This document shows, piece by piece, positions 9,677 through 35,519 of a DNA stretch of 45,592 nt. Numbering within the stretch: the stretch's first letter is position 1; each line of letters starts with the position of its first letter. The position numbers and the translations under genes are program-made. Source of the DNA: Candidatus Cloacimonadota bacterium (lineage in GTDB: Bacteria > Cloacimonadota > Cloacimonadia > Cloacimonadales > Cloacimonadaceae); NCBI GenBank assembly GCA_030154085.1, contig JASKKR010000016.1:1-45592 (forward strand), read 5' to 3'. The notes under the pieces were generated by a model. That model was not told where the DNA came from and did not search any database. It was given only the letters and a program-made list of their open reading frames with translations.

Positions 9677-9714
9677 CCAAGGATTATTCGTGTATTTTGC
9701 TAACTGATATAAAC

Positions 9715-9738
9715 TGACACCCAAAGCTGCAAGTTGTG
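9715..9738 (+). repeat. Left terminal repeat L1 of the transposon
   Basis: The sequence has the form TGACAC-N6-CTGCAAGTTGTG. Against the right terminus it differs only at positions 6, 8, 12 and 19 of 24. It begins 38 bases after the SdpI-like gene. Confidence 0.72.
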
Positions 9739-9841
9739 ACACAAGGGGAAAGTGGGGATAAGGCTTTGATTGGTGTTTAGTTGCGATGGACTGGCTTTGG
9801 AAATGTCCAAGCGCCTATTTGGACGTTTTTGGACTGTTTGC

Positions 9842-9861: not shown

Positions 9862-9917
9862 AGCGAGGCGTTTGGACATGCTTTGGAAAGAGCAGTTGGA
9901 AAAACAGAACTTTGAAA

Positions 9918-10664
9918 TTAGAAAAAGCGCAATTGGAGTGCGATTGTGCCGATCAGGAAAGCTCCGTAATTCCAATCTGAGTCTAAAACAAGAACCGGGT
10001 AGTCTATATTAAATGGTTGGAGGATAATCTGTTGCCTGTGGTGGTCGATCTGCACCTTCTTGATGGTGAGACCATCGTCAGTTCTTACAACTGCAATTTT
10101 ACCATCGGCATTTTCCCAACTCTGATCGCTTTTGATGACCACGATGTCCTGATGCTGGATCACAGGCTCCATGCTCTGTCCATTTACTTGAAAGACAGTG
10201 TATTGCTTGGGGTTGCCGGTCAGGAATGAGATCGGCAACTGAATCTGACCGACTTGACTCCACTCGTCTCTGATCTCCATCGGAGGTCCGGCAGCTATTT
10301 CACCGACTATGGGATAGGTGATAGATCGAGTGAGATCGAAGTCCTGATTGTTGATAGGATGTAGGATTGGAGAGATGATGGATGGGTTTGGACTGTTTGG
10401 ATTAGTTGGTGCTTGATTGGATTGGAGAAGCTCTTGAAACTCATCTTTGGCATACATAGAACCGCTTCCCGTAAAGAGCCAGTGGATATTGATCTTATCC
10501 TTGGAGAGTGCTTCTAAGAACTCAGGATCGGGATATCTCTCATTCAGCTTGTATCGGGAAAGCGAGGCGCGGGAGATGCCATACTTATTGGCAAACTGGT
10601 AATCCTTGAGTCGCATTGCCTTAATCACCAAGCTAAGGCGTTGTCCGATAGTCGGTTTATTCAT
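9918..10664 (-). CDS. Self-cleaving XRE/S24 repressor (LexA/CI type) of the transposon
   Basis: The protein has about 248 residues. The N-terminal half has a helix-turn-helix (YQFANKYGISRASLSRYK). The C-terminal half is an S24 LexA-like peptidase, with an Ala-Gly cleavage site in GEIAAGPP, catalytic Ser164 in VNGQSMEP and Lys202 in GLTIKKV, 38 residues apart as in LexA and UmuD. Such repressors cut themselves when RecA filaments form on damaged DNA. The start MNKPT at 10664 has GGAG at six to seven bases; an in-frame ATG lies slightly upstream. The gene is divergent from the transposase operon, in the same place as the Mu c repressor, so it most likely represses transposition (inference). Confidence 0.87.
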   Translation of the reverse strand: MNKPTIGQRLSLVIKAMRLKDYQFANKYGISRASLSRYKLNERYPDPEFLEALSKDKINIHWLFTGSGSMYAKDEFQELLQSNQAPTNPNSPNPSIISPILHPINNQDFDLTRSITYPIVGEIAAGPPMEIRDEWSQVGQIQLPISFLTGNPKQYTVFQVNGQSMEPVIQHQDIVVIKSDQSWENADGKIAVVRTDDGLTIKKVQIDHHRQQIILQPFNIDYPVLVLDSDWNYGAFLIGTIALQLRFF

Positions 10665-10690
10665 CGTGGTCTCCATATAGTAACTTTGGC

Positions 10691-10761
10691 ATTGACTATA
10701 TCCGCATGGCTGCAAGATTAGTTCCAGATGCCATTCTGCTGCAAGGCGGATTGGAGTCAAT
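10691..10761. promoter_or_regulatory. Probable operator between repressor and transposase operon
   Basis: A long interrupted inverted repeat is visible: ATTGACT (10691-10697) and ATCCGC (10700-10705) are mirrored by GCGGAT (10746-10751) and AGTCAAT (10755-10761). Inside it, CTGCAAG occurs twice (10710-10716, 10739-10745), the same core as the transposon end sites. A divergent intergenic position next to a repressor gene supports an operator role. Confidence 0.55.
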
Positions 10762-10905
10762 ACTAAAGTGTATAGTGTGACCCAGGTGGATTATAAAGTA
10801 TTGCCGGATAATGCGTAAGAAAGATGGCAAACTTGCAGAAAGGACTTCCCAAGGTTCTGCTCTTGTGGTTGTTAGCACCCTACTAATACATAAGAGAGGT
10901 GTAGA

Positions 10906-11478
10906 ATGACTACCAAGAAACAACGCCATGCGGAAGTGCAGAAACGAGCTTGTAATGGCAATGTCCAAGCGGGTACCCCTGTCCAAGCGGGGGTAGGCAT
11001 GAGGCTTAACTCATTGATAACTATGATGAGAAGCCAAAATGACCAAGCGCTTAACCGCATTTTTCAAGATTCCCGACTGAAATGTCCAAGCGGGTCACAG
11101 TTTTTGAAGGATTTGGACATGGACATGAAAGTCGATTTTATCTGGTTTCCCATTGATAGAGTAGCCATGCTGATGGACAAGAATCTGAAGACGATCAGAA
11201 GAATGGTGGATGCCGGAAAGCTGACTGCACTCAAACATCAGATACCGACCAAGAACGGAGCCACGATCAAGACCTTTGTGCTGGCAACGGAAGAGATCAT
11301 TCAGGCTGAGTATGATAGATTCAGAGATAGCCTGCGTAAGCCGGAGCTTTACTTTGAGGAAGTGATCGATCTGGGCGAGCATAGCTATCCCAGTGTCTTC
11401 CTGGTCTATTATGATAATGGTAATGAATTGGTCGTAAAGAGCAGCGAGAAAGCAGGAGGTTCAGATGTTTCCCTATAG
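10906..11478 (+). CDS. Small DNA-binding protein with excisionase/MerR-like helix-turn-helix
   Basis: The frame gives 190 residues, but the useful part is the last 119. IDRVAMLMDKNLKTIRRMVD followed by a basic wing resembles excisionase or MerR-type winged helices, a fold also used by the enhancer-binding domain of MuA. The first 71 residues are coded by DNA that carries a cluster of TGTCCAAGCG sites, which accounts for the odd repeated VQAG peptide. The ATG at 10906 has GAGGTG at good spacing; the ATG at 11119 has GAAGGA at good spacing and may be the real start. The gene overlaps the transposase gene by 14 bases, so the two are translationally coupled. Confidence 0.6.
   Translation: MTTKKQRHAEVQKRACNGNVQAGTPVQAGVGMRLNSLITMMRSQNDQALNRIFQDSRLKCPSGSQFLKDLDMDMKVDFIWFPIDRVAMLMDKNLKTIRRMVDAGKLTALKHQIPTKNGATIKTFVLATEEIIQAEYDRFRDSLRKPELYFEEVIDLGEHSYPSVFLVYYDNGNELVVKSSEKAGGSDVSL
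10962..11092 (+). repeat. Cluster of TGTCCAAGCG sites (possible transposition enhancer or operator)
   Basis: TGTCCAAGCG occurs at 10962-10971, 10980-10989 and 11083-11092, with a one-mismatch copy TGACCAAGCG at 11040-11049. A related copy lies at 9804-9813 and an inverted variant at 9869-9878 near the left end. The cluster sits about 1.3 kb from the left terminus, comparable to the internal activating sequence of phage Mu (about 1 kb in). It could bind the excisionase-like protein, the repressor or both. Confidence 0.6.
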
Positions 11479-14059
11479 TGGCAGACCAACTGAGGAGTTC
11501 TTGAGAGAGTATCGTAATAAGCTGAATGAACTGCAAGAATTGATGGAGAGCCAAGGACTGAAGCTTGAAATCAAGAGTGGTGGCAGATGCATAGTGGTAC
11601 CGGAGGTAAAGGCTAATCTCAGCAAGGTTAGTGGGAATGGTAACGGTGGTTGTGATGGGAATAGCAGAAACAACAGTGGAGATGCCACCGATGCCGACAA
11701 CAGCTTCATGCTCGCCTACAGCCAGCAGTATAATGCCAAAGCAGATAGTACAGAAGATAACCTCGAGTCTGAGACGGTCTATGAGACCTATGAAGACTAT
11801 CTGGACTTTGAACGTAAGCTTACTCTGATCCATGAAGCCCGGGACAATGATGTGGTAATCGACTTCTCCAGTGAGTTTCTCGATCTGGCTCCGGTGGAAG
11901 AGGAGAGACTGCTCTTCAAAGATGAGGCTCAGCTCTATGGCAGATTCTGCCAGGAGGTGTTCCGCAGATTGCATGGAGTCGATTCAAAGACATTAGCTTG
12001 GAAACGCATCACCAGTGACTATAACACCAAGAGACTGGTACCGGAACTCTACAATCTCAAAGGACCCCGAAAAGAGAGGGCACTGCGAGAGTGGCTCAAT
12101 ATCTACCTGGAGAATAAGCTGGATATGTATGCCCTGATCCACAAGAGCAAAGGCAAGTATAAAGAACGAAAGATCACTTTTCAGGAACAGCACTACCTTC
12201 TGCATCTGCTGCTCAATCCTAACCGGATCAAAATCGGCTCTGCCATCACCAACCTCAAGCAGATGAGCAGAAACAAAGTAATAGAATCAGAGACCAATGA
12301 ACGGACGCTCAGACGCTGGTGCGAGGAATGGGCAGCCAGGCACCCGGCAGAGTGGCATCAAGCCAGAGATGGCAGCAAGTTCGTCTCAGAGAATCTCATC
12401 AAGAGCATTATGAGAGATGACAGCACTCTGGAAGTGGGACAGGTCTGGGTGGCTGATGGACATACCCTCTCCTTCGATATCCTCAATCCCCAAACCGGCA
12501 GAGCCCAACGCATGACCATGATCATGGTGATGGACTGGGCAAGCAGGTATCCGGTGGGAGCATCTTTAGCCTTTACCGAAGATAGCCAGCATATCCTCAC
12601 CGCCTTCCGCAATGGCTTCATCAACTGCGCTCAGATTGCCGATAACAATAGCGGAACCATGGCTGTGCTACCCAAGTATGTCTATCTGGATAACGGCAAA
12701 GCCTTCCGAGCCAAACTCTTTCATGAGAGATGGGAAGAGCATGATCTGAACAAGGAACTGGGCGGTATCTTCCCCCGGCTCAATATCGGAGTGCGATTCG
12801 CCGAGAGCTACAATGCCAAGGCAAAGATCATCGAACGCTTCTTCAAGACCTTCCAGGAGCAGTTTGAGAGGTTCATTACGACTTTCAGAGGAGCATCGAT
12901 AGACGATAAGCCCTCTGTCCTGCATCGAAACGAGGTATGGGCTAAGAAGCTCTATGCCGGTAAGCCACCCACCATTGAAGAGACGATGCAGATGATCGCC
13001 TTCTATGTGAGGTTTTGTTATGGCGAGACACCGCATACCTCACTCAACAGACGCACTCCCTATGAAGTCTTCAGTGCTGCCAGGATAGCTGAGAGTCGGC
13101 AGATTGAGATCTCCAGGCTCAACTTCCTGATGATGGCAATGGAACGCAAGAACATCCGCGCGGAAGGCATCAGGCTGGATAAGAAGGTCTACTGGCACCG
13201 GGAACTGGTTAACCATGTGGGACAGCCTTGCATCATCAGATTCGATTACAGCGATGCCAGGTGGATCGTGGTCTATGACAAGAACGATGTCTTCATCTGC
13301 CAGGCAGCCCTCCGCAAGGCACAGCATCCCTTCATCGAGGTCTCGATGGATCAGGCGGTCTCGCATAAGGAGCTGAACAAGGAATACAAAGAGATCAAGG
13401 GACTCCGACGGGAGAAAGAACGCAGTGCCAAGAAGTGGGTGGTCAACTCGCAGAAGGCAGTTGATAAGATACTGAGCAACTCCCCATCTAAGCAGGAGAA
13501 GCTTGAATATCAGGGTGCCAGAGCACTTTTCAATAGTCCTCCCATGCTGGAAGCACCACCTAAGGATAGTGATGAGATCATCGAGGAAATGACCAGAAAG
13601 ATGATGATGAGGCAGCCCATACATCCGGATATGCTGAGTCCGGAAGAACGGGAGAAGCTTAATGCGGAAGAGAAGGAGAGACTGGCAGAGCAGGAGAGGG
13701 ATAGGATAATCCTAAAGGAAATCAAAGAATCGTTCGACCGTATAGGACTCGAATATCAGACAAGTAATGATAAACCAGCCATGGAGTTCGCGATAGGCTT
13801 CAGCCAAACAGCCAGAGAGTACTACAAAGCTCAACAAAGATCCCAAGCAGAACAAGAAGCATCAGATGAAGCACCCACTGCCACCGCAACAAAAGATGCC
13901 ACAGGTATAGAATCTGAAGATCATGATCCAGCGGAAAAGATCTCCATACCAGCAGAAGGGCCTGATGATAAGCAAGCACAGGATGACACCAAGACTGGGC
14001 AGTCACCCTTCGCACACCTCTCCAGAGCGGAACTCCTCAAGCGCATCGGGATAAACTAA
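11465..14059 (+). CDS. DDE transposase of MuA/TnsB type
   Basis: The chain of 864 residues catalyses strand cutting and joining at the transposon ends. The RNase H-like integrase core has Asp331 in VWVADGH, Asp409 in VYLDNGKAF and Glu457 in KAKIIERFF, giving a DD48E triad. A Mu-transposase-like beta-barrel follows (about 560-620). The tail (about 640-864) is rich in Glu, Gln, Lys and Ala and probably coiled or disordered; in MuA the C-terminal part contacts the ATPase partner MuB and ClpX, and the conserved-looking final FAHLSRAELLKRIGIN may play that role (inference). The start has an AGGAGG ribosome binding site and overlaps the previous gene. It is longer than MuA (663) and IS21 IstA (about 500). 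Confidence 0.9.
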   Translation: MFPYSGRPTEEFLREYRNKLNELQELMESQGLKLEIKSGGRCIVVPEVKANLSKVSGNGNGGCDGNSRNNSGDATDADNSFMLAYSQQYNAKADSTEDNLESETVYETYEDYLDFERKLTLIHEARDNDVVIDFSSEFLDLAPVEEERLLFKDEAQLYGRFCQEVFRRLHGVDSKTLAWKRITSDYNTKRLVPELYNLKGPRKERALREWLNIYLENKLDMYALIHKSKGKYKERKITFQEQHYLLHLLLNPNRIKIGSAITNLKQMSRNKVIESETNERTLRRWCEEWAARHPAEWHQARDGSKFVSENLIKSIMRDDSTLEVGQVWVADGHTLSFDILNPQTGRAQRMTMIMVMDWASRYPVGASLAFTEDSQHILTAFRNGFINCAQIADNNSGTMAVLPKYVYLDNGKAFRAKLFHERWEEHDLNKELGGIFPRLNIGVRFAESYNAKAKIIERFFKTFQEQFERFITTFRGASIDDKPSVLHRNEVWAKKLYAGKPPTIEETMQMIAFYVRFCYGETPHTSLNRRTPYEVFSAARIAESRQIEISRLNFLMMAMERKNIRAEGIRLDKKVYWHRELVNHVGQPCIIRFDYSDARWIVVYDKNDVFICQAALRKAQHPFIEVSMDQAVSHKELNKEYKEIKGLRREKERSAKKWVVNSQKAVDKILSNSPSKQEKLEYQGARALFNSPPMLEAPPKDSDEIIEEMTRKMMMRQPIHPDMLSPEEREKLNAEEKERLAEQERDRIILKEIKESFDRIGLEYQTSNDKPAMEFAIGFSQTAREYYKAQQRSQAEQEASDEAPTATATKDATGIESEDHDPAEKISIPAEGPDDKQAQDDTKTGQSPFAHLSRAELLKRIGIN

Positions 14060-14071
14060 TAGGAGGATTAC

Positions 14072-14782
14072 ATGAAACAGGGAACGCTCGTCAGAACTCA
14101 GAACGTGATAGCCGCAGATAAATGCATCGAATACCTGCTAACACGACCTAAGCTGGAGATGGTCGGACTTGGCTTGCTCTATGGCAGACCGGGACTGGGA
14201 AAGACCACTTATGCCAGTCGGATCGCTTTCAGTAAGGGCTATCTCTATCTCAGGCTGGAGGCAACTACCACTCCCAAAGCCTTTGCATCCAAGCTGCTCT
14301 TAGCCCTATACAAGAGATTTGGCATGGGAGAGTACATCCCCTACGGGACAGCTAATGACCTCTTCATGATGTGTATAACGCTTCTGGAGGATCACAAGGA
14401 TACGATCATAGTTGTTGATGAGATAGACTACGCCTTCCGGCATCCCCAGCTCTTAGGTGCGATCAGGGATATCGTGGATGTGACCACAGCGATTGTCATC
14501 CTGGTCGGGATGCAGAATGCCAAAGACCGGCTCAATCAGATCAACGAGTACTACTTCGATAGGTGCAACTTCTTCTATGAGTTCCAAGACCTGCCTAAGA
14601 AGGACATAGCCCAGTTATGTAGTGAGATTCTGGAGATCAAGTTCCATCCGGACATAGTCGACTATGTCCACTTCCACTCCTGTGGCAATGTTCGTAAAGC
14701 CATGAAGCTAATCCGCTCAGTGGAAGAGATAGGTAGATACAAGAATCTGGACATAGTATCCCAAGCCGATCTGGATGATTGA
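14072..14782 (+). CDS. AAA ATPase of MuB/TnsC type (transposition target selector)
   Basis: This 236-residue protein has Walker A GRPGLGKTT at about residues 38-46 and Walker B IIVVDEID at about 112-119, with the LVGMQNAKDRL sensor segment after it. MuB, TnsC, TniB and IstB form ATP-dependent filaments on target DNA and recruit the transposase; length and position directly after the transposase match that group. It lacks an obvious N-terminal DNA-binding extension like that of MuB. A 12-base gap separates it from the transposase, with AGGAGG before its ATG. The next gene follows after 7 bases. Confidence 0.85.
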   Translation: MKQGTLVRTQNVIAADKCIEYLLTRPKLEMVGLGLLYGRPGLGKTTYASRIAFSKGYLYLRLEATTTPKAFASKLLLALYKRFGMGEYIPYGTANDLFMMCITLLEDHKDTIIVVDEIDYAFRHPQLLGAIRDIVDVTTAIVILVGMQNAKDRLNQINEYYFDRCNFFYEFQDLPKKDIAQLCSEILEIKFHPDIVDYVHFHSCGNVRKAMKLIRSVEEIGRYKNLDIVSQADLDD

Positions 14783-14789
14783 GGTGATA

Positions 14790-15293
14790 ATGACGGACAA
14801 AGAACTGATCCTCAACTTCATCAATCAGTATGATCGCCCCTTCAATGCAGAACTGATATCCAAGCTGACCAGTGTAAGCATAGAAGCAACAGAAAAGCTA
14901 CTGCCCGAATTGCTCCAAAGCCAGGCAATCAAGCAGATTGAAGATAGTCCTCCAATTTACGTCCGAGCCAACCGCTTTCAAGCCAGGATTGGCTATCAGC
15001 ACTACAAGGGCTGGACTTTCAGCATAGCAGATGCCCACAGGCTACTGGACATCCTGGAACAAGGCAGATTCAAATCCATCCGAGAGATTGCTCAAGACAT
15101 AGGAAAATCAAGGCAATGGGTCTATATCTATCTGGAGGCACTGGCATCAATTGAAGTGGTTGATCTGAGGGGCTTCATATATGTGGTCATATCCCGCCAA
15201 AACGTGCCAAAAATCGGCAGAAAAGTCCAGAAAGGTATCTTGGGTCAACTCAGGAGTTTGAATAAGGCTGGGTGTTATAGATTAATCGAATAG
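14790..15293 (+). CDS. Double winged-helix protein of the transposition module
   Basis: The protein has 167 residues and appears to have two helix-turn-helix units: NAELISKLTSVSIEATEKLL (about residues 18-37) and SIREIAQDIGKSRQWVYIYL (about 95-114). The second ends in a short basic tail. The start at 14790 has GAGGTG at good spacing; a GTG or ATG slightly upstream overlaps the ATPase gene. Its place as last gene of the transposition operon suggests an accessory regulator or target-choice factor, as TniQ/TnsD or Mu early proteins are, but I see no TniQ zinc motifs. The function is unknown. Confidence 0.6.
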   Translation: MTDKELILNFINQYDRPFNAELISKLTSVSIEATEKLLPELLQSQAIKQIEDSPPIYVRANRFQARIGYQHYKGWTFSIADAHRLLDILEQGRFKSIREIAQDIGKSRQWVYIYLEALASIEVVDLRGFIYVVISRQNVPKIGRKVQKGILGQLRSLNKAGCYRLIE

Positions 15294-15313
15294 GCGATGT
15301 TTTTGAAAAGTAC

Positions 15314-16864
15314 CTATGGCTTCTCCTGCTTTAGATGATTCTGCATCGCCTGAAGCGTTTTGAAACCGAGTTTCCTAGCAGCTTGGCTTTGGCTTGTGCT
15401 TGTTTCGATGCTTTCCCGAATGGCTTCTAGCTTGATCTTTTGTATGTCATTCATTAGATTACACTTCTCTTCAATACTTACTCTTAGCTGCTCGGAAATA
15501 GGGAATCTGATACACGAAGTATTGTTCTCCGTAGGTCGCTTTTTGTAGGACTCTCGTGCTAATGTATCTGCTGTTATCAATGGATCGGAACTAAGTATGC
15601 AGCAACGCTTTACAACAGAAATAAGCTCTCGTACATTCCCCTCCCATTGATGGCTCATAATGAATTCATAAGCGGTTTTATCGAAGCTCTTTGCTTGGTA
15701 CACTATAGAGAATTTTGCTTTAGAGGCTAAATCTGATAATTCTTTGTTAGTGTCTTCTAAGCATTTGTCTGCAATAATTACCACATCTTTTCCACGACTT
15801 CTGAGGGGGGGTAACTCAATGATACCTTCGGATAAACGGAAAAACAAATCGAGTCTTAGCTTATCAGGACTATTTGTGGCAGACACCAATCTCACATCTA
15901 CGCTCTCCCCTTTATCACTACCTATGGGTTTTACTATGCCATCCTCCAATACTCTTAGAAGCTTTGCTTGTAGATTATGAGACAACTCACCTATTTCATC
16001 TAAAAACAGAATTCCTTTATGAGCCTGTTTAAACAGACCAAGTCTATCTTCTTTTGCGTCAGTGAATGAACCCTTAATATGACCAAACAACTCAGACTCT
16101 GCCAATGTGTCGGGCAGGTTTGCGCAATTGAAGCTGAAAAATCTATTATTATCCCGAGCTGAGGCATCCCTGTATAATTGAGCAAAAAGCTCTTTACCTG
16201 TACCGCTTTCCCCTGTGATAAGAACGTTACGATCAAACATGGCATATTTACGAACATCATTAATCGCAGATTTTATCGCCTCGCATTCCCCGATAATCTC
16301 TTTCCCTCTAACATCACCATATAGCACTTGTCTTTTCATTTGAGTGTCAGCAGGTAGTTGTTTTTGTAGTACGTCAAAGCTGATCGAAAATGGAAAGTTT
16401 ACCTCTTCCACATTTGATGTTTTTCTCGGAGTATCAGTCCATGTTTGAAGTAGGGTTGCATCATATTGAGTCCTGCCAAGTATTATAAATGAGACCGTGA
16501 TGGCATTAGTTCCAGAAGATGTGTTGAAGTAAAGTGCTGTCGCTTTGCGTTTTGTTGCAAGAATTTTAGCAACCTCATCACTCATTAGTTTATGCATCAC
16601 AGTAATATCTGATGTCACAAGATCGTCTTGCATTGCAATGGGATATACTGTGCAGTTATACTTTTCTTTGATTTTATTGAGATAACGCCTCAGGTTCAAC
16701 TCATAGCGATCTATATAGGAGTACTGGTAGAAAGCATATACTTCATCTATCGAATGATTGCCCTTAGCCAGTATAGTTTCAATAGGGCCATAAGGTTCTA
16801 CCTGCCTTGTTGCGCTTTCACAATCATGTTTCCCAATCCAACTGATTAATAAGTTCATACTCAC
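15314..16864 (-). CDS. Sigma54-dependent activator with CARF-like sensor domain (RtcR-like)
   Basis: The protein has 516 residues. Residues 1-160 start with MNLLISWIGKHDC and contain ALYFNTSSGTNAITVSFIIL, which looks like the CARF fold of Csx1/Csm6 and RtcR that binds cyclic oligoadenylate or RNA-end signals. An AAA+ bacterial enhancer-binding domain follows, with Walker A GESGTGKE, Walker B GILFLDEIGE and arginine-rich sensor text ELPPLRSRGKD. The C-terminus has a Fis-like helix-turn-helix (SQSQAARKLGFKTLQAM). The sigma54-contact loop reads GSFTDA instead of GAFTGA, so coupling to sigma54 may be altered. The gene converges with the transposition operon and diverges from the HNH cassette, which is its likely target. 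I found no well-spaced -24/-12 promoter there. Confidence 0.82.
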   Translation of the reverse strand: MSMNLLISWIGKHDCESATRQVEPYGPIETILAKGNHSIDEVYAFYQYSYIDRYELNLRRYLNKIKEKYNCTVYPIAMQDDLVTSDITVMHKLMSDEVAKILATKRKATALYFNTSSGTNAITVSFIILGRTQYDATLLQTWTDTPRKTSNVEEVNFPFSISFDVLQKQLPADTQMKRQVLYGDVRGKEIIGECEAIKSAINDVRKYAMFDRNVLITGESGTGKELFAQLYRDASARDNNRFFSFNCANLPDTLAESELFGHIKGSFTDAKEDRLGLFKQAHKGILFLDEIGELSHNLQAKLLRVLEDGIVKPIGSDKGESVDVRLVSATNSPDKLRLDLFFRLSEGIIELPPLRSRGKDVVIIADKCLEDTNKELSDLASKAKFSIVYQAKSFDKTAYEFIMSHQWEGNVRELISVVKRCCILSSDPLITADTLARESYKKRPTENNTSCIRFPISEQLRVSIEEKCNLMNDIQKIKLEAIRESIETSTSQSQAARKLGFKTLQAMQNHLKQEKP

Positions 16865-17050
16865 CTCTGGAACTAAGTTAGATACACCACGTGTAATGTC
16901 AATATATTATTCAAATCATTCAACATATTGTTGATTGACATCTCATTCTCCTAATTAGATATATCTATGTTATGCAATAAGATAAAGAAAACTGAGAGCA
17001 CTTTGGAACGCCTTGCTTGTATTAGGGACAAAACACATAAGGAGATAACA
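16865..17050. promoter_or_regulatory. Divergent control region of CARF activator and HNH cassette
   Basis: The region is AT-rich. A small palindrome TACAC-CAC-GTGTA lies at 16883-16895, just before the activator start. TTGACA occurs at 16935-16940 facing the HNH gene, followed by only weak -10 candidates (GATATA or TATGTT). A TGG...GC pair near 17001 has 8 instead of 10 intervening bases and is not a valid sigma54 promoter. Confidence 0.3.
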
Positions 17051-17266
17051 ATGAGTAAGTTTAGAATCAACAATGGTTACAAACAATACCTAAGTGGCAG
17101 TGGCTGGGCTTACACCCACAGACGAGTTGCTGAGAAGCAGATAGGCCATACTATCCCCAAAGGATATGAAGTTCACCATAAAAACGCTGTAAAGACTGAC
17201 AACCGGCCTGCTAATCTAGCTATTTTACCTAAGGGCATCCACCAGAAAATTCACAATAACAAATAA
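17051..17266 (+). CDS. Small HNH endonuclease-like protein
   Basis: The protein has 71 residues. It carries the phage-type HNH layout: HRRVAEKQIG, then PKGYEVHHKNAVKTDNRPAN (the His pair and Asn), and IHQKIH (last His). This fold binds one metal and cuts DNA. I place the start at 17051 because AAGGAG stands nine bases before it; a longer in-frame ATG at 16967 has no ribosome binding site. No extra DNA-binding domain is present, so it may work with the protein encoded 12 bases downstream. HNH proteins of this size are common in phages and mobile DNA. Confidence 0.72.
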   Translation: MSKFRINNGYKQYLSGSGWAYTHRRVAEKQIGHTIPKGYEVHHKNAVKTDNRPANLAILPKGIHQKIHNNK

Positions 17267-17278
17267 GGGGTTATCCTG

Positions 17279-18100
17279 ATGAAAAGAAGAACTCAAAACA
17301 TCCATGCCCATAATACGATCAGACACGGATACGAAGCGAAGGTGATTAACGAGTCCCTGAAAAGAGCAGGCAATAATCCACAACTCAAAGGGATTGTGCA
17401 CGAAGTTTTGATCAAGGATGGGATCAACTACAATCCGGTAAACATGGTTAAAGGGATAAATGCCGCACTTACAAAGAGCACAAATGCAAAAACAGTCGAT
17501 GTTGTAGTAAAACAGGGCAGCAAAATCGTCGGACGAATCCAAGCGAAGGATACAGCTAACTCGATAAGCAAAGTAGTTAAGCAAGTGAAAAACGGGCAAT
17601 ACAAATCGGCACAGATCTTGGGTACCAAGGAGACAGCCGCAAAACTAACCGCGAGATTAGCAAAGGACGGTGTATCAAAGACAGTTAAATCGTCTGGTAT
17701 AAGCTCTAGAACAACTCAAGCTATAGCAACCAAAGCAGGAGTTAACGGATTCACTGGATTATCCAAGGCTTGCACCACTGCAGCAAAAGGAAGTGCAGTA
17801 ACAGGAGCTGTAGTTGGAACCGGTTTCGCCGTATACCAAGGGATCTGTGATCTATCTGATGGATCGAAAGACTTGGGTGAGGTCGCCCTTGATGTTGGGA
17901 AAGAAGCCGTCGGAAGTGGACTTTCCGCTGCTGGCGCAGGGGCAGCTGCTACTGCTGGCGGTGCAGTTGTTGCCACTGCTGTTACTGCTGCAGGGATAAC
18001 TGGTGGAGCAGCTATAGCCTTGACGGTAGGTGCTCCGGTTGTAATAGCAGTAGGGGTTGGTTACGCGATTAAGTCGATCTGGGACTCAATCTTTAATTAG
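17279..18100 (+). CDS. Possible nuclease-like domain fused to Ala/Gly-rich hydrophobic region
   Basis: The protein has 273 residues and I do not recognise it as a named family. Residues 1-110 contain an E...D...QxK pattern (GIVHEVLIKDG, TVDVVVKQG, GRIQAKDT) that could be a PD-(D/E)xK nuclease core. Residues 165-265 form two or three Ala/Gly/Val-rich hydrophobic stretches with small-residue repeats, which could insert into a membrane or pack as a glycine zipper. The combination recalls effector or toxin proteins, but this is inference. The gene lies 12 bases after the HNH gene and 65 bases before another small gene, probably one transcript. The ribosome binding site (AAGGGG) is somewhat distant. 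Confidence 0.5.
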   Translation: MKRRTQNIHAHNTIRHGYEAKVINESLKRAGNNPQLKGIVHEVLIKDGINYNPVNMVKGINAALTKSTNAKTVDVVVKQGSKIVGRIQAKDTANSISKVVKQVKNGQYKSAQILGTKETAAKLTARLAKDGVSKTVKSSGISSRTTQAIATKAGVNGFTGLSKACTTAAKGSAVTGAVVGTGFAVYQGICDLSDGSKDLGEVALDVGKEAVGSGLSAAGAGAAATAGGAVVATAVTAAGITGGAAIALTVGAPVVIAVGVGYAIKSIWDSIFN

Positions 18101-18165
18101 AACGAGTGCTCTGATTTAATGGATGAAACACAACAACACAAACAAACCTCAAGGAGGATAGAGCT

Positions 18166-18420
18166 ATGTACTTTGGTTATATGAATCAATTGCTCAAAAT
18201 GATAGTCACCGTGAAGCAAATCGAACAGCTTAATCAAATCTGTAACAATCCGCAGAGGAGTTATTCTCAGGAGTCCGCAGAATCAGACGGAACTTGTAAC
18301 GAAAAAGCTTCAAAACTTGCCGATGCTTACAGAGCATATGGTGAGTATTGCACACTATTCGGATTTACACCATGCGAAGAAGGATTCAAGGTGTGGTATG
18401 GTGAGAACATTGATGTATAA
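18166..18420 (+). CDS. Small protein of unknown function
   Basis: This is an 84-residue reading frame with a very strong ribosome binding site (AAGGAGGA, 18151-18158, seven bases before ATG). It begins with a mildly hydrophobic helix, then a polar linker with Ser, Glu and Cys, and ends in an aromatic-rich segment (AYGEYCTLFGFTPCEEGFKVWYG). There are four Cys in total. I recognise no family. Position at the end of the HNH cassette would allow an immunity or partner protein, without direct support. Confidence 0.5.
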   Translation: MYFGYMNQLLKMIVTVKQIEQLNQICNNPQRSYSQESAESDGTCNEKASKLADAYRAYGEYCTLFGFTPCEEGFKVWYGENIDV

Positions 18421-18449
18421 GCCGATGCTGGGATGAATCCATTCAAGTA

Positions 18450-18477
18450 TTGACAATTTTGATCACTCTAACATAAT
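18450..18477 (+). promoter_or_regulatory. Promoter of the main defence operon
   Basis: TTGACA (18450-18455) is followed after 16 bases by CATAAT (18472-18477), five of six matches to the -10 box. The next start codon is at 18505 with GAGGTG before it. No terminator-like hairpin is seen downstream until 38325, so this could drive up to ten genes. Confidence 0.6.
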
Positions 18478-18504
18478 GGAAATTTATAGGTTGTGAGGTG
18501 AAAA

Positions 18505-21500
18505 ATGATTGAATTAATAAGGAAGAAATGCAAGCAGGGTGACATTGTTAAAATCACTCTTGATGGTGGCCGCGAGATTACTGGCGCATTGGATGAGATC
18601 AGTTCTGAGCATCTAACTTTGATGGTAGATAAGAACCCCGTAGTCCTGACCCACAAGATAATTGTTCTCTTTGAAATCGTAAAGAAGATGGAAATCTCAC
18701 AACCCGCAACTAATCCAGTTATGGATCAAACCCAAGTTAAGTCTGTAGAGCCAGAAAACACTCCAGCAGATGAGGTAGATAAACAAGTTTCAGATAACCC
18801 AACATCACTTATTAAGCCCACGCTCAAGGTTCAAAAGGAAACACAAGAATTCACTGTTGAACTTCTAACAAACTACAATGAAGCACTCTCATATTGTTCT
18901 TATCTTGATGATTTCGACATATGCAATAAGGTTACATCACTTGATTTCAAATATGAAAATCCTACCGAAACCAAGAACAGCATAGATAAAAAACTGATGC
19001 GCCTATCCGCAATATATGATGAATTCAAGAAAGATCCCAATATAAACTCAATTCAGCCAGCAGTCGCTGAGATAAACAGCTTGTTTGCTGATAATCCTGG
19101 TAATACGAACCTTGCGTGGAACTACTTCATTTTGTCTTGCATCAATGGTGATCATGAAACAGCGTTTAATTGCCTTCATACTTATGCGTTGAAGTCTGCA
19201 AACACCGATTTAAAGTCCTGGCAAGATTATTATATCCTCTTGATTGGACAAACCAGATTATACGAAAAACTTGAGGAGTTGATCAGGCATTGCAAAAGCA
19301 CGTTGAATGAGAATGCTCAGTTAGTTGAATTTTCGCGAAAGGCATTAAGTTACATGCTATATAAAAGCAAGATGAACACAGCTATTGAATCAGCTCTTAG
19401 CATTGATGAAAATAACCTTCTAAAAACCGTTAAAGAGCTTACTGACATAGTACCGAGGAAAAGCATCTACTCATCTGCATCAAGTTCTCCACGGCAACCC
19501 CAACAACGAAGACCATCCTTACCTAAAACACAAACACGTCAATTCTACAGCCTTACTGAAGAGATCAATTTCGCAGTTAACAATGGCGATATCAAAGCTG
19601 TAGATTCTCTGTATGAACGATACAAGTCAAGAAGCGACGCCACAAAACTGATTCAAATCGGGACAGCTTACCAAAGACTCGGGCAGTATGACAAAGCCTT
19701 GGAAATTTTTAATACTGGTTTGCAGAAGTATCCTGACAAAGCTGTTGGTTTCTTGACCTCCCGCGTGCAGATTTATGAACTTCAGAATGAATGGACTTTG
19801 GCAGATGGGGACTACAAGAGATTATTAGAAGTAAATGGTGATACTGAATCAAAGAGAAAGAACTATAATTTTCAACGAGCAAGAGTCCTTCTGAAGGATA
19901 GAGAGATAAACAAAGCAAGAAATATCCTGTTCGAGTTAAGTAAAAAGTACCCAACTGATACTGGTATAGCCAATGCCCTAGCTGAGATAGATAGAGTAAC
20001 TGAGGATATTGCTTCTGGTTCTGATCAATTTGTTGAAATCCCAATTATTGATATTGGTGATGACCAAATTGAGATCATTAGCCCCATGTTAAGGTTTGAT
20101 ATTGAGGAATGCGATTACAGGGATGAAAGCATTTTAAAACAAGGCAACAAACCGACTTTAGAAGACGCCATGCGCTTAAAATCCAGAGCTATGACTAGTA
20201 TAAAAGATCAAGTCGAGATGTCTGAAAGGTATCCGCTATTTCTTGAGGCTGCCAAAGCATATAATGATTTGAATCCCGGAAGCTATGACCCAACAGATCT
20301 TTACGAGTTATTGGCTAGATACGCAGCCTTGAGAGCAGGAACCATATTCTCGGATCTAAAGAAAAAACTCTTGATGCCTTCGAGAATGATAGATCCCCAA
20401 ACTGCTCAGTTAAAGGCAGACACTGCATCAAGTTACTATCTAGAGAGCGTAAACCTGCAAGCCATGGTAAAGCCAGAAAACATGCTGCTGCCCTTAACAA
20501 ATCATTTAAAGATTCAGATGGCTATCTTGTTGTACAAATTAAACAAACCTCTTTCTGAGGATATTTTCTCTGGCAATTTCACAACGATATTCAAAGTATG
20601 TATTGCCTCAAAAATCTCCGAATTGAATGAGCTTGCATACAAATCTGTTGTCACGATCGGATCTACAAATGTCATCGCGTGGAATAAACTGAAGGATGTA
20701 AGAGGGGGAAGTGCTGTATTCTATGGAACAATCCCAACTGAAAGCAAAAGAGTTATGCCCTACATGTATTTGAGTAATTTATCAGGAACAATCTTATCAC
20801 CTATAGACCTTCCTGGTGATGCCCTAAGAAAGGTGTTCCAAGCAAGAAAGAGTCAAAATGAGCATTTTATCGAGCTAACTAAATCTCCCAAGCTTATAGA
20901 CTTCAGACCCCAGAATATTAGTAACATAGAGAACATTATTCAGGAAATGGAGAAATTCAGAGCTCTTTTTTTTGAATCCGATTTAGTGATATTGGAGAAG
21001 CTGAAGTATATTGTGAACGTTTTCAAGCCTTATGAAACAAGAGGTGCCAACGAAAGGGTATCAATAATCGTTAAGGTACGTTCAGAGATATTCAGTATCA
21101 TCGAGTTCATTGAGAGTAACCCAACTTATTGGGGGCGAGTCGCGTTTTTCCCAATTCTACAGTCATGGAAAAAAAGCATTCTGAAACTTGAGTCTGAGAG
21201 AATCCAATCAGTCATACCAAGACTGTCAGTTAACGTAGATCCTCAAGTATATCGTAGAGACAACACCCTAGTGTCAATCAATGTGGTTATTCAAAATACT
21301 GGACAGGCAACGACGGACAATCATGCGATAAAAATAGAGTTACTGGACAATGAAACAGGTACTCTATTCAATAGTAGCGAAAAAAGCTTCAATCAGGAGC
21401 TACATGTTGATGATCATCACTATTATCAATACCAGGCAGAAGTGCCAGTTAATCACAAGGGATCATTGTTTTTAAGAGTAGCCCCATCATTTTCATATCA

Positions 21501-24429: not shown

Positions 24430-27400
24430 ATGAAAATCGCGGTTAATCAAATCATTTCCAGTCCCCTCTTCAACGAACCCATGAGGGTTGTAACCATTAC
24501 TCCTGGGGGCAACGAAGTATTTGCCTTAGGCTTGGTAGGGACTAAGAGCCAAACCTTCAGACAGGTCAATCTTACTGTCTCCCAGATTGAAGATCTTGAA
24601 ATCATAGATAGCGCATACACATACGCTGGGAATGCCAATCTCCTCAGGCTCGGGTTGCAAGCCTATATGCTTGGCATCGCATACGAGTTCGACCCCTATT
24701 TTGGACTATCAATATCCCGGGTCGACCCCCTACCCCATCAGCTTGAAGCAGTATATGATTACTTTCTCAAACTTGCCAGGATAAGGTTTCTATTAGCTGA
24801 TGATGCGGGAGCCGGAAAGACTATTATGGCTGGGTTATTGATCAAAGAGCTTAAACTTCGCGGTTTAGCTGATAGAATTCTGATAGTATGTCCATCTAAC
24901 TTATCGTTCCAGTGGCAACGCGAACTCTTGGAAAAATTCGACGAGAAATTCACCGTGCTCAAGGGCTCTAATATCCGCAACCAATTCGGCTCGAACCAGT
25001 GGCTGGAGCATAATAGGATCATTACTTCGTTGGATTTAGCAAAACGGGAAGACATCCTACCCGGCCTAAAACAATCTCATTGGGATCTGGTGATCGTTGA
25101 CGAAGCACACAGGATGTCTTGCTCCACAGGTGGGAAAACTGCCAGATATCAGCTCGGAGAGTACTTGCGAGACATTACGGATCATTTTGTTCTCTTGACC
25201 GCCACACCGCACAAGGGAGATCCCGAGAACTTCACTTACTTCCTGCAGCTTCTGGATAAGGACGTTTTCGCTGATGTAAAGTCTATCCGCCATGCCATGG
25301 AAAACCAAAGAGCTCCATTTTACCTGCGCAGAACCAAGGAAGCCATGGTCTATTTTCCAGAGAGAGACAATGCCGGAAACTGGCTGCAAGCTAAAATATT
25401 CACCAAGAGGATAACCCAGACTATTGCCTTCCAGATAGAAGGTGCGGAATTTGAACTCTACAGAAACATCACCAACTACGTTAAACGACAAAGCGCTTTG
25501 GCTGCCGCAGATGGTAGCAATCCAAGAGCAAAGGCCATCGGCTTCCTTATGTCCATGTATCAAAGGAGATTGGCTTCCAGCACCTTTGCCATGCGAAAGA
25601 GCTTGATAAACAGGGCAAATCGCCTTGAAGATGCCTTGAAGGATGCCTATAAACTGGCTAATGAAGCACCTCCATCAATTCCGGATGAAGAAGAATGGGA
25701 AGAGATGGAGGAGTATGAAAGAGAGAAGCTGGAGCAAATCTTGGAAGCGATGTCCCTGGTTCAGAATAAAGAACTGGTGAAGGCCGAGATTGCCGATCTA
25801 CGGGCTTTTGCCAAGGAAGCAGAAGCAGTTGAACAAGCCAACCAGGAAGCAAAACTGGCAAAGCTTAGGTTCCTGCTCCAACAAGAGGGATTCTTTGAGC
25901 ATAGAGATCGCCGTCTCTTGATCTTCACCGAGTTCAAGGATACCCTCTATTACTTGGAGGAAAAGCTCAAGTCCTGGGGCTTTGCGGTTGGCTGCATCCA
26001 TGGCAGCATGAAACCAGGTTCTCGTAATGAGCCCGGGACCAGGCTTCACTCAGAGCAGATGTTCAGAGAAGGGCAGATCCAGATCCTGCTCGCTACAGAA
26101 GCTGCCGGAGAAGGCATCAATCTCCAAGTCTGTAACATCATGTTCAATTACGACATCCCATGGAACCCCAACCGTCTGGAACAGAGGATGGGACGTATCC
26201 ACCGTTATGGACAGAAGAAGGATTGCCTGATCTTCAACTTCGTGGCTGAAAATACCATTGAGGGCATGGTTCTGAAGAAGCTGCTGGAAAAACTCCAAAA
26301 TATCCGGGATGCATTGGATGATGATGCCGTATTCAATGTTGTAGGCGAGGTTATGCCTTCTGATCAGATTGAGCGCATATTAAGAGATTATTATGCAGGG
26401 AAGCTGGGAGATGCTGACCTGGAACTCAGGATTCTGCAAAACGTAGATGAAGACCGCTTCCGGGCAATCTGCCAGAATGCCTTGGAAGGACTGGCATCCA
26501 AGAAGCTGAATCTTAGCATGCTCATTGAGCGCAGAGCCCTCGCCCAGGAAAGAAGAGTAGTACCCGAGACCATCCACAGATTCATCAATGAAACTGCTAA
26601 AATTGCAAGTTTCACAATCAAGGATCATCCCAGCCTAGCACATAGCTTTGATCTTGGTAAAACTCCCGCGCATCTGAAGTCATACGAATCGGAGCGGGAT
26701 TGGAAGTTACCTGCCCTGGCCAACCAATATCCCCGCTGCACTACAGACAGAACCACTTCAGAGAAACATAATCTGGAGTGGGTGACTCCCGGTCATCCTT
26801 TGTTTGAGGCTCTCAGACGCTTTACAGAGAGTAAGGCAAGAAAGGAGCTTGGCAGCGGTGCCGCCTACTACTCACTGCAACATTCAGAGCCAGTAAGGTT
26901 GGATTTTTACCGGGCCAGAATAGTGGATGGCTTGGGCATCGTAATCCATGAGCGCCTTTTCGTGGTAGAAATTGCTGAGTATAAAGAGCCGATCTTGCGA
27001 GAACCCACCATAATCGGAGATTTTATAGCTGCAGAATCAGAGATTGAACTGCCAGCAGTTGCATTCTCTGAGGAAGCCCTCAATTGGCTAAATGATAATG
27101 CCTTCATGCCTTTCCTGAATGAAATCAAAGCAGAACGGGAAGATGAGATAAAGCGGGTTGAGAAACACGTTGAACTTTCCCTAACGGAGATCATCGGTAA
27201 AGCAGATCAGGAAATCGGTAAGCTGGAGGATGAGATAAAACTAGGGGTCGCCGGAGCCGAAGGTCGCTTGGCAATAGCTGAAAACCACCAGGCCAATATG
27301 ATCGCCCGCCGGGAGAAAAGAAGAAAAGAGCTTCAACAACAGAAGTCACTCACCTTGCAGGGCGTTGAACGTATCACCAGTATTGTGGTGCTTCCTCACC

Positions 27401-27828
27401 CCGAAGCCCAGTCCGATTCCTTGAAGAATCTGAAGCCAAATTATGAAACTGAGGCAATTGCCATGAAAGTGGTTATGGAATATGAAGAATCCCAAGGCAG
27501 AAAGGTCTTTGATGTACACGAGAAAAACTTGGGATACGATATCACCAGCCTTGATGTATCCTCTGGAGAACTGCGGCTTATTGAGGTCAAAGGGATTGGG
27601 GCTGAATCCGGCACCATTATCCTTACTCCTAACGAAAGAAGAGTTGCGGAAGATAGACCGGATTGTTTCTGGCTTTATGTGGTAACCAACTGCAACAGTG
27701 CGCCCCAACTTCAATCTCCAATACTAAACCCAGCACAGTATCAATGGAATGAAGTGAAGAAAGTACAGCATTATACGATAAGCACGGCGAAGATAGTCGA
27801 AGGTAATAGGAATGGCACTAGGATTTAA
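24430..27828 (+). CDS. SNF2-family helicase with C-terminal DUF3883
   Basis: This is a 1132-residue superfamily 2 DNA translocase. Its motifs are PLPHQLEAVYDYF (Q-like), Walker A ADDAGAGKTI near 125, VDEAHRMS near 224, LLTATPHKG, then the second lobe with LLIFTEFKDT, LLATEAAGEGINLQ and NRLEQRMGRIHRYGQ. A Glu-rich helical part (about 900-1000) leads to a DUF3883 domain (KNLGYDITS, LRLIEVKG, near 1020-1090), related to nuclease-like folds and common in defence helicases such as DISARM DrmD. The stop overlaps the nuclease gene by 17 bases. Codon choice and base composition are more GC-rich than in the next two genes, so this block may have a different origin. Confidence 0.88.
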   Translation: MKIAVNQIISSPLFNEPMRVVTITPGGNEVFALGLVGTKSQTFRQVNLTVSQIEDLEIIDSAYTYAGNANLLRLGLQAYMLGIAYEFDPYFGLSISRVDPLPHQLEAVYDYFLKLARIRFLLADDAGAGKTIMAGLLIKELKLRGLADRILIVCPSNLSFQWQRELLEKFDEKFTVLKGSNIRNQFGSNQWLEHNRIITSLDLAKREDILPGLKQSHWDLVIVDEAHRMSCSTGGKTARYQLGEYLRDITDHFVLLTATPHKGDPENFTYFLQLLDKDVFADVKSIRHAMENQRAPFYLRRTKEAMVYFPERDNAGNWLQAKIFTKRITQTIAFQIEGAEFELYRNITNYVKRQSALAAADGSNPRAKAIGFLMSMYQRRLASSTFAMRKSLINRANRLEDALKDAYKLANEAPPSIPDEEEWEEMEEYEREKLEQILEAMSLVQNKELVKAEIADLRAFAKEAEAVEQANQEAKLAKLRFLLQQEGFFEHRDRRLLIFTEFKDTLYYLEEKLKSWGFAVGCIHGSMKPGSRNEPGTRLHSEQMFREGQIQILLATEAAGEGINLQVCNIMFNYDIPWNPNRLEQRMGRIHRYGQKKDCLIFNFVAENTIEGMVLKKLLEKLQNIRDALDDDAVFNVVGEVMPSDQIERILRDYYAGKLGDADLELRILQNVDEDRFRAICQNALEGLASKKLNLSMLIERRALAQERRVVPETIHRFINETAKIASFTIKDHPSLAHSFDLGKTPAHLKSYESERDWKLPALANQYPRCTTDRTTSEKHNLEWVTPGHPLFEALRRFTESKARKELGSGAAYYSLQHSEPVRLDFYRARIVDGLGIVIHERLFVVEIAEYKEPILREPTIIGDFIAAESEIELPAVAFSEEALNWLNDNAFMPFLNEIKAEREDEIKRVEKHVELSLTEIIGKADQEIGKLEDEIKLGVAGAEGRLAIAENHQANMIARREKRRKELQQQKSLTLQGVERITSIVVLPHPEAQSDSLKNLKPNYETEAIAMKVVMEYEESQGRKVFDVHEKNLGYDITSLDVSSGELRLIEVKGIGAESGTIILTPNERRVAEDRPDCFWLYVVTNCNSAPQLQSPILNPAQYQWNEVKKVQHYTISTAKIVEGNRNGTRI

Positions 27829-28732
27829 ACAAAGAAATGCAATAAGGAAGCTTGCGGAGATACTTACCAATTTCTTGCCAGCGTCAGGTAATCCAATGTG
27901 GAAAGGACACGTTAATTTTGGTTCTGTAGCTACAAAACTCGGATTATCAGAATACTGGCATGGTGGAAGTAAGCTTCCTGCCATAATCTATCTGCTCGAA
28001 AACACATACGAGAGAAAAAGAAGTTGCTTTCAAAACTTGATAGAAGCAGTCGTATTAGAAGGGAAAACCTATAGAAACAACAAGGGTAATCCATTGTTAA
28101 GGAATGAGGTTGACGAACTGAATAAATGTCTGCTTGAGTTGGAGTTTAAGTTTCCCGATCTACATGATCCTAAGTTTCTGGAGTCTCTTGAAGATACTTT
28201 GTCCACAATCATTAAAACTGCTGTAGAAGGGTCAGTTGAGACAATATACCGACAACAGTTGTATGAACTTAAGACAGAATTTTATGATCTTTCTAAGCTT
28301 GACAATCGGCAGGATGCAGGATATAGATTAGAAAAATTATTGAGCAGATTGTTCGAAACTTCAGGGCTAAATTCACGCTCTCCCTTTAAGGTTTGTGGTG
28401 AGCAGATAGATGGATCTGTCGAGATAGATACTAACACATATCTAATTGAGGTTAAGTGGACAAAGAAACCCATAAACGAAAGTGACCTATTGGTTTTCAG
28501 AGGTAAGGTAGAGGGTAAAAGCAGTTTTACACGAGGGATGTTTTTATCGATTAACGGTTTTACCGAAGAAGCAATAACTGCAATTACGACTGGGAAACAA
28601 CCAAACTTCTTTTTGCTAGACGGGTATGACCTAACTACGGTGCTAGAAGAGAAGTGCTCATTAGGTGAATTACTAAGACATAAAATCAGAAAGCTTGCCG
28701 AGGAAGGATCTGTCTATGTTAGGCTTCCTTAG
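27812..28732 (+). CDS. Mrr-like restriction endonuclease (PD-(D/E)xK)
   Basis: The protein has 306 residues. The C-terminal part carries the Mrr-type nuclease core: AGYRLEKLLSRLFETSGL (helix with catalytic Glu), then an Asp in GEQIDGSVEI near 200 and the LIEVKWTK motif near 214, and GMFLSINGFTEEA. The N-terminal 170 residues are helical and unlike known DNA readers; they may bind the helicase or DNA. The gene overlaps the SNF2 gene by 17 bases, which suggests a fixed stoichiometry and a joint helicase-nuclease function. Mrr relatives often cut modified or foreign DNA. Which substrate is used here cannot be seen. Confidence 0.8.
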   Translation: MALGFKQRNAIRKLAEILTNFLPASGNPMWKGHVNFGSVATKLGLSEYWHGGSKLPAIIYLLENTYERKRSCFQNLIEAVVLEGKTYRNNKGNPLLRNEVDELNKCLLELEFKFPDLHDPKFLESLEDTLSTIIKTAVEGSVETIYRQQLYELKTEFYDLSKLDNRQDAGYRLEKLLSRLFETSGLNSRSPFKVCGEQIDGSVEIDTNTYLIEVKWTKKPINESDLLVFRGKVEGKSSFTRGMFLSINGFTEEAITAITTGKQPNFFLLDGYDLTTVLEEKCSLGELLRHKIRKLAEEGSVYVRLP

Positions 28733-28773
28733 AAAATCAAAAAATGGTGTAACTATTACTAGGTGGATTAGAA

Positions 28774-30714: not shown

Positions 30715-30715
30715 T

Positions 30716-33688: not shown

Positions 33689-33703
33689 TATGCTGATAAT
33701 CAA

Positions 33704-33768
33704 ATCACTAACTTGCTTTTCGCTCATTAACATTTATAATGTTAGTGATGCAAAATCGTGTTAATGAG
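33704..33768. promoter_or_regulatory. Nested palindromic operator before the AbiE-like pair
   Basis: Three inverted repeats are stacked here: ATCACTAAC (33704-33712) with GTTAGTGAT (33741-33749), CTCATTAACA (33723-33732) with TGTTAATGAG (33759-33768), and TAACATT (33728-33734) with AATGTTA (33738-33744). All are exact. The last arm reaches the ribosome binding site GAGAGGA of the next gene. AbiEi antitoxins are known to bind two inverted repeats upstream of their operon, so this is a strong candidate for autoregulation. Confidence 0.78.
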
Positions 33769-33776
33769 AGGATACC

Positions 33777-34751: not shown

Positions 34752-35494
34752 GAGGGCTGGCAACATTTAAGAACCATTTTGCTGAATATAGTGATCAATA
34801 CGTTCTGATCGGCGGAGCAGCCAGCGCAGAGCTGATGGAGCAGTCCGGTCTTCCTTTTAGAGGAACTCGAGACTTGGATGTCGTCCTTATTGTTGAGGCA
34901 ATGACAAATGAATTTGTGCGGGCTTTTTGGGACTTTATCGAGAATGGCAGGTATGATGTTAGGTCTCACAGTCAAAGTGAGAGAAAGTATTATCGATTCG
35001 AGAACCCTGAAGACGAAATCTATCCAGCGTGCCTTGAGTTGTTTTCCAGGATTCCTGATAACATCAGATTTGAAGGTCATGGGCGTTTTACGCCAATACC
35101 TTTAGACGATGATCTATCATCTCTCTCTGCCATACTGCTTGATGATAACTATTATCCTTTGATTTTGAATGGAAGAGATGATTTAGATGGATTGTCTTGC
35201 CTAAAGGTAGAATACATCATTATCCTCAAAGCCAAGGCATGGTTGGATTTGCATCAACGGAAAGCAGACTCGAGAAAAGTCAACAGACAGAAAAACGATG
35301 TTATCCGCCTATTTCCCCTGCTCAATCCTAGCATGAGGATTGATATTCCGGAAGCGATCCAAGACGACCTTAAAGAGTATTTGAAAGCTATAGCAGAAGA
35401 TAAAACCATAAACTTGAAAGACCTAGGAATCAGCCAATTCGGTATCACAGAAATTGTCAAAAGTATGGAACAAATATATGGTCTTTCTAACTAA
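34745..35494 (+). CDS. AbiEii-like nucleotidyltransferase toxin
   Basis: The protein has 249 residues. It has the nucleotidyltransferase signature LIGGAASAELMEQSG (residues about 21-35) followed by FRGTRDLDVVLI (about 37-48), the GG...DxD arrangement that binds metal and NTP, and a later Lys-rich helix (LKAKAWLDLHQRKADSRKVN) matching the AbiEii tail. AbiEii proteins are bacteriostatic, and some add nucleotides to tRNA ends. The start overlaps the antitoxin gene by 7 bases, so it is translationally coupled with no strong site of its own. Other GG..DxD proteins such as DUF6036 remain possible. A fresh ribosome binding site (GGAG) precedes the next gene 25 bases later. Confidence 0.7.
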   Translation: MVRGLATFKNHFAEYSDQYVLIGGAASAELMEQSGLPFRGTRDLDVVLIVEAMTNEFVRAFWDFIENGRYDVRSHSQSERKYYRFENPEDEIYPACLELFSRIPDNIRFEGHGRFTPIPLDDDLSSLSAILLDDNYYPLILNGRDDLDGLSCLKVEYIIILKAKAWLDLHQRKADSRKVNRQKNDVIRLFPLLNPSMRIDIPEAIQDDLKEYLKAIAEDKTINLKDLGISQFGITEIVKSMEQIYGLSN

Positions 35495-35519
35495 TTTATT
35501 GATATATGGAGATAAATAA

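Follow-up and report, generated by a model that had tools for sequence, protein, structure and literature searches.

In phage Mu, six subunits of the transposase MuA occupy the ends through their Iβ and Iγ domains and are bridged by their Iα domain to an enhancer, which can be bypassed in vitro (PMC3562280). Domain Iα is dispensable under some conditions and highly variable among 44 homologues (PMC3362531), and the reason for its evolutionary upkeep is still argued (PMC3362531, PMC3562280). An enhancer-binding domain is absent from the TnpA transposases of Leptospira and "so far appears specific to Mu" (PMC8705779). A literature search, with subscription journals and preprints mostly outside its reach, returned no report of a split MuA Iα. 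Here, we describe a Mu-like transposon in a 45,592-nucleotide contig of a Candidatus Cloacimonadota bacterium (JASKKR010000016.1, assembly GCA_030154085.1), hereafter the window, in which a small open reading frame (ORF) encoding a winged helix (the wing) precedes and overlaps the gene for a MuA-type transposase, TnpA (Table 1). We present evidence, drawn from sequence comparison, that this small ORF very probably arose by fission of a MuA-type transposase gene, and we weigh whether its product acts as a DNA-binding subunit of the transposase.

The small ORF and the TnpA ORF share 14 nucleotides, and an AGGAGG ribosome-binding site lies 5' of the TnpA ATG. A sequence-only reading of this locus had predicted both a separate, overlapping winged-helix ORF and candidate sites in its 5' part, and both are found, the sites as three exact copies and one copy with a single mismatch of a short motif. 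That reading had further seen in the pair a two-protein version of MuA, with the enhancer-binding function moved to the small protein, and had proposed a search for natural fusions. Other members of the phylum do carry such fusions, and their match to the small protein is specific, so that the structural half of the proposal appears to hold; its enhancer-binding half keeps the standing of a proposal.

TnpA has the core of a MuA-type transposase, with matches to Mu-transpos_C, phrog_310 (Table 1) and rve (E 8e-4), and with residues D331, D409 and E457, which we take to be the DDE triad. The phrog_310 match begins only at residue 201, profile position 155, whereas the same profile covers MuA (residues 1-644 on profile 6-639) and fused relatives from near their first residues (2-610 on 8-599 in L057, 1-658 on 8-609 in L095, 17-616 on 23-599 in L062); in three other fused loci the match starts later, at profile positions 105, 94 and 99 in L055, L101 and L103, respectively. 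Residues 144-310 superpose on MuA 94-247 in the Mu transpososome (4fcy; Z 7.8, 138 aligned residues, root mean square deviation 7.3) and on a TnsB chain (Z 8.8). Residues 1-340 were modelled with 34 split sequences as input; the model, whose predicted template modelling score is only 0.34, is helical from residue 146 on and has no wing in residues 1-143, a region mostly of low confidence. Furthermore, when the TnpA ORFs of the 38 split loci were searched with a hidden Markov model (HMM) of the fused Iα domain, not one was matched even at E<=10. No intact domain I was found in the 864-residue transposase, where only Iβ/Iγ were recognised. Judged by these comparisons, TnpA of the split clade starts past the Iα/Iβ border, and the overlapping ORF upstream encodes the wing.

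Of 124 genomes surveyed, all from this phylum, 37 gave a match to the transposase query and 22 to the small protein. From the genome matches 64 loci were picked, most contig-end fragments being omitted, and were classed by the upstream ORF, the TnpA N-terminus and HMM matches. The wing is a separate ORF in 38 loci (split; one of these, L102, is identical to the window element) and part of TnpA in 15 (fused), as well as in L056, a fused locus with an interrupted frame; eight loci lack a wing, and two were left unclassified. Across the 64 loci the wing lies either within TnpA or upstream, never in both places. Four fused TnpA genes have a Ner-like ORF of about 80 residues directly 5' (L060, L062, L092, L093). 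A scan of further genome contigs gave 53 loci, mostly from Candidatus Cloacimonadota, many on the same contigs and a few from bins of other names. A viral scan gave 48 loci, with a small protein in 39 and a wing within TnpA in six, the remainder being cut off or unresolved. The split form is present in a transposable phage, because the viral record G127 (stretch L218), one of the split ones, carries phage genes for a Phage_Mu_F protein (Pfam E 6.7e-11), a portal (6.9e-12) and an XkdF-type protease (2e-32); an ORF of this record was also read as a terminase, with no Pfam family match. The window copy, unlike this phage record, carries defence cargo. Portal_Mu was found in one of nine viral records, that one fused.

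The fused transposases of the phylum open with a MuA-type Iα domain, and it is to this domain that the split wings are most clearly related. Profile comparison of split wings (n = 35) with fused N-termini (n = 15) gave a score of 53 and an E of 2.5e-11, aligned Met to Met, and a separate run gave a probability of 97.1% and an E of 5e-11. The invariant Met72 of the small proteins corresponds to the start Met of the fused transposases, and the nearest fused set (L055, L091, L099, L101) aligns with the split wings over 50 columns without a gap. Control comparisons by hhalign against the split wings gave E 0.0036 for lambda Xis (a single sequence), 0.0057 for the downstream winged helix-turn-helix (HTH), 0.054 for the S24 HTH, and 0.045 and 0.011 for Ner (four phage sequences) and Ner-like proteins (two ORFs), the last two values placing the wing outside the Ner-type HTH family. 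An HMM of the fused domain, run over 2765 ORFs of the 64 loci, recovered at E<=0.05 27 of the 38 split small proteins and two other ORFs, one the wing of the interrupted TnpA and one an unrelated Ner-like ORF; in the viral loci it recovered 24 of 39 small proteins and, among 2943 ORFs, otherwise only six fused TnpAs. The reverse search with the split-wing model found three fused TnpAs and no further ORF at E<=0.05. By these scores two loci look like intermediates between the split and fused forms, since the small protein of L180 scored E 4.3e-8 with the fused model and the fused TnpA of L214 scored E 8.3e-4 with the split model. When ten proteins, including six fused TnpAs, were scanned with Pfam up to an E of 10, no match to the family of Mu domain I (PF02316-type) appeared; a PDB sequence search with fused or split wing profiles returned weak Cox, Xis and BldC rows only and no MuA Iα entry; and Foldseek and a second structure comparison, not informative alone, returned no MuA Iα entry either.

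The small protein is predicted to form a winged helix over residues 78-127 (pLDDT, the per-residue model confidence, 76-93 by block); the nearest PDB folds, all with low Z (2.7-4.0), are those of BldC, mycobacteriophage Xis and P2 Cox. The only two family matches of the small protein are weak and Cox-like: PF10743 Phage_Cox (E 0.019, residues 84-119, 15.2 bits against a cut-off of 27.5) and phrog_272 (E 0.055). In an alignment of 35 small proteins, from which the near copies L051, L081 and L102 were omitted, seven residues are invariant, including Met72, Trp80 and Arg85. The 71-codon leader before Met72 contains no stop codons, and this holds in 35 of 35 sequences, a count that is partly circular in that the ORFs were chosen by open frame. 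The ratio of nonsynonymous to synonymous change is 0.58-0.81 in the leader, where synonymous change is low, and 0.10-0.21 in the wing; the leader pattern looks like constraint on the DNA. The Shine-Dalgarno signal 5' of Met72 has a median rank of 12% among about 540 positions, which is only moderate, and translation may possibly start there in place of Met1.

A tree of 63 transposase cores from the genome rows, built with the wing excluded, joins 37 split and all 8 wing-less rows in one clade (support 97) nested within the fused rows. The case for fission combines the MuA-type Iα of the fused relatives, the specificity of the HMM searches, the nested clade and the alignment of Met72 with the transposase start.

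The short sites offer a candidate target for the separated wing. With up to one mismatch allowed, the window contains 7 copies of TGTCCAAGCG where 2.17 would be expected, and 0 of 100 shuffles gave as many; most loci have 3-13 copies of a short repeated site close to the wing. In split loci the array lies 5' of the wing Met, at about -280 to -35, and in six fused loci (L055, L091, L095, L099, L101, L103) it lies just past the wing, at about +137 to +330. The post-wing linker of five of these (L055, L091, L099, L101, L103) is a short peptide repeat encoded by the tandem DNA site array. Repeats are weak in L060, L062, L096 and L097, and no 8-mer repeated three times was found in fused L056, L092 and L093 or in split L094. 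The motif differs by group: the window group has TGTCCAAGCGG, another group has TGTCCAAGTCC/GG, and the remaining loci have CACTGTGACA with variants. Motif and recognition helix were compared in the 78 loci whose small protein had been scored; the motif is clear in 76 of these, and in all 76 motif class and wing helix are concordant: the wing helix is always without Trp in the 30 TGTCCAA loci and always R-T-x-W-R in the 46 loci of TGTGACA type. The recognition helix of the divergent S24 repressor, unreadable in 16 of the 78 loci, also tracks the motif, with A (24) or V (4) at A-type sites and N (32) or T (2) at C-type sites, and this repressor is as good a candidate for the array binder as the wing. 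The third operon gene was dropped as a candidate, its second helix being the same whatever the motif.

Taken together, these observations are best read as describing a separate regulatory DNA-binding subunit of the transposase that would act at the array jointly with the repressor. We lean, at slightly better than even chance, towards identifying the small ORF as the enhancer-binding Iα of a MuA-type transposase, now a separate, translationally coupled gene acting at the array; a role of the wing in transposition through array binding we put just below an even chance. From the gene structure and the kinship described above we infer the following binding and contact steps. Coupled translation would yield wing and TnpA close together. 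The wing protein would bind the array in and just before its own gene, plus the matching left-end site, and TnpA would occupy the ends through Iβ/Iγ. Contact between the two proteins may then load or check end-bound TnpA, regulating synapsis under control of the S24 repressor, which would share or compete for the same sites, as in Mu. The most inclusive version, which we offer tentatively and as rather less than evenly probable, is a natural two-subunit Mu transposase in which Iα is a trans-acting subunit whose own gene holds the array in its 5' part; one fission would have founded a lineage of transposable phages and defence transposons across Cloacimonadota, and the subunit would later have been lost several times together with the repressor.

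Several results weigh against this interpretation. The split wings do not match 11 phage MuA Iα sequences significantly (E 0.16), an HMM of those sequences had zero matches over the locus ORFs, and the fused relatives themselves reach phage Iα only at E 3.8e-6, so that the link from split wings to phages runs via the fused relatives. P2 Cox, as a single sequence, matches the split wings at E 4e-7, and on profile score a kinship of the wing with excisionases is possible. A FastTree analysis extended to 114 rows (by every viral locus whose core was long enough, L160 being dropped as short, and by five genome-contig loci) placed the fused viral locus L207 inside the split clade; under a richer model with 48 chosen rows, viral ones included, L207 fell back outside at support 84, a value not decisive for a single origin of the split form. 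The concordance of motif and wing helix derives from two tree changes in physically linked parts and, because only two changes underlie it, significance is unreachable by any test. Finally, the eight wing-less elements (L049, L050, L053, L076, L078, L079, L080, L083) have no wing gene and no S24 repressor and nevertheless keep the array, whose leader is joined in frame to TnpA without a wing in five of them (L050, L053, L079, L080, L083) and forms a 122-residue ORF in the other three (L049, L076, L078). Since the array is kept there, some other factor uses or used the sites, or proteins from elsewhere act on them.

The same losses bear on an alternative that we regard as unlikely but the strongest of its kind, namely that fission was real and the wing now serves only as a transcriptional switch with the S24 repressor, Ner- or Cro-like and outside the transpososome, with the array as operator. 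Wing and repressor were lost together though the array lies between them, since 37 of the 38 split loci have a repressor homologue, the one exception being truncated at a contig end, against 0 of 8 wing-less loci; the wing-less elements seem mobile, as close copies occur in different genomes; the repressor helix covaries with the motif; and in Mu ner lies directly 5' of A. Yet the origin of the wing, or at least its match, is a transposase N-terminus and not a regulator, and the array of the fused relatives adjoins the same domain within the transposase gene. A second alternative, which we hold to be improbable, makes the small protein an unrelated Cox, excisionase or MerR-type regulator that replaced Ner, with Iα lost from TnpA independently. 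It would account for the Cox-like models being the only ones named by family searches, the P2 Cox score, the fold neighbours BldC, Xis and Cox, and the Ner-like ORF in the same position in four fused loci; it sits poorly with the reciprocal HMM specificity for fused TnpA N-termini, the alignment to the sister fused group, gapless and full-length from Met to Met, the strict complementarity of wing location and the continuous series to which L180 and L214 already point. A programmed frameshift producing a full MuA-like fusion besides the separate proteins, suggested by the 14-nucleotide overlap in most split loci, was set aside as very remote, because the overlap frame is not conserved (14, 8, 11 or 17 nucleotides in one relative frame, 1 or 4 in the other) and a good ribosome-binding site precedes each TnpA ATG, which points to coupled re-initiation and not to a conserved slip site.

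With Iα apparently separate in one lineage, fused in its sisters, and lost along with the repressor in others, these elements may serve as a natural experiment on the purpose of enhancer control. They also suggest that an "enhancer-binding domain missing" from a transposase, as in Leptospira, may be a domain moved to a neighbouring gene.

The transposon occupies the window from about 9708 to near 40.3 kb, with the gene order S24 repressor (- strand), then small ORF, TnpA, MuB-type ATPase and a winged-helix gene (+ strand), followed by cargo. Matching to the window ends at 9706-9708 in 8 of 10 compared loci, the other two being limited by a contig end, so that 9708 is the likely left terminus; relatives start with the same TATAAA..CACCCAAA..TGCAA terminus and differ in their flanks. 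The listed TTG start of the repressor is probably too far upstream, because the conserved part begins at MNKPTIG. TnpB matches the MuB-type AAA partner expected of a MuA-type transposase. A sigma-54 activator-type gene (15314-16864, PF00158 E 4.1e-53) lies on the opposite strand directly 3' of the transposition genes. The cargo includes an Hma-type defence system (24430-38324; HmaA-like 24430-27828, HmaB-like 30653-33688, HmaC-like 35520-38324; PADLOC) and a GmrSD-type restriction endonuclease (38409-40094; PF03235 E 1.5e-28, HEC-05 in PADLOC). A second genome (G044) has an 11 kb contig (locus L102) that is 99.97% identical to window positions 9875-20941, which suggests recent movement between species.

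Table 1. Features of the left part of the transposon, in window positions
Feature	Position	Strand	Basis
Left terminus of element with first CAAA..TGCAA end-type site	9708..9745	+	match boundary in compared loci; relatives' shared terminus
Array-type site TGTCCAAGCG, exact, near left end	9804..9813	+	
Array-type site near left end, 1 mismatch	9869..9878	-	
S24/HTH repressor gene	9918..10760	-	PF00717 E 7.9e-18
Small ORF, 190 residues: weakly constrained leader holding the site array, followed by winged helix and C-terminal beta hairpin	10906..11478	+	
Internal site array in 5' third of small ORF: 10962, 10980, 11040 (1 mismatch), 11083	10962..11092	+	relatives' arrays in same place
Winged-helix domain, candidate split-off MuA Iα, from invariant Met72 (possible internal start)	11119..11295	+	
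MuA-type transposase TnpA without Iα, 864 residues	11465..14059	+	PF09299 E 1.6e-14; phrog_310 E 2.9e-71
MuA Iβ/Iγ-like end-binding domains, TnpA residues 144-310	11894..12394	+	fold match to MuA in 4fcy
Catalytic core motifs D331, D409, E457	12455..12835	+	motif positions
MuB-type AAA ATPase TnpB	14072..14782	+	phrog_296 E 7.1e-22; PF13401
Third operon gene, winged-helix protein	14775..15293	+	second helix constant across array motifs

The element shares with phage Mu (phrog_310; 4fcy) the Iβ/Iγ domains, the DDE core, Mu-transpos_C, an adjacent AAA ATPase and a divergent repressor, and, as in Mu, its internal sites lie about 1.2-1.4 kb from the left end. It differs from Mu in having the candidate Iα in a separate overlapping gene with the array inside the 5' part of that gene, in a repressor that is S24/HTH_3 and not MuA-Iα-like, and in having no Ner gene seen between the repressor and the wing gene. 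The Ner proteins of Mu-like phages are likewise encoded by a small DNA-binding gene directly 5' of A, which in phage Gregale overlaps A; the Ner profile, however, does not match the wing. P2 Cox and the Xis excisionases belong to the same wing superfamily as the small protein, which differs from them in its partner, a MuA-type transposase with no integrase, and in its score below the Pfam cut-off. The transposable prophages of Leptospira come close in having a MuA-like TnpA with the enhancer-binding domain missing, and differ in that the available part of their description mentions no separate wing gene (PMC8705779).

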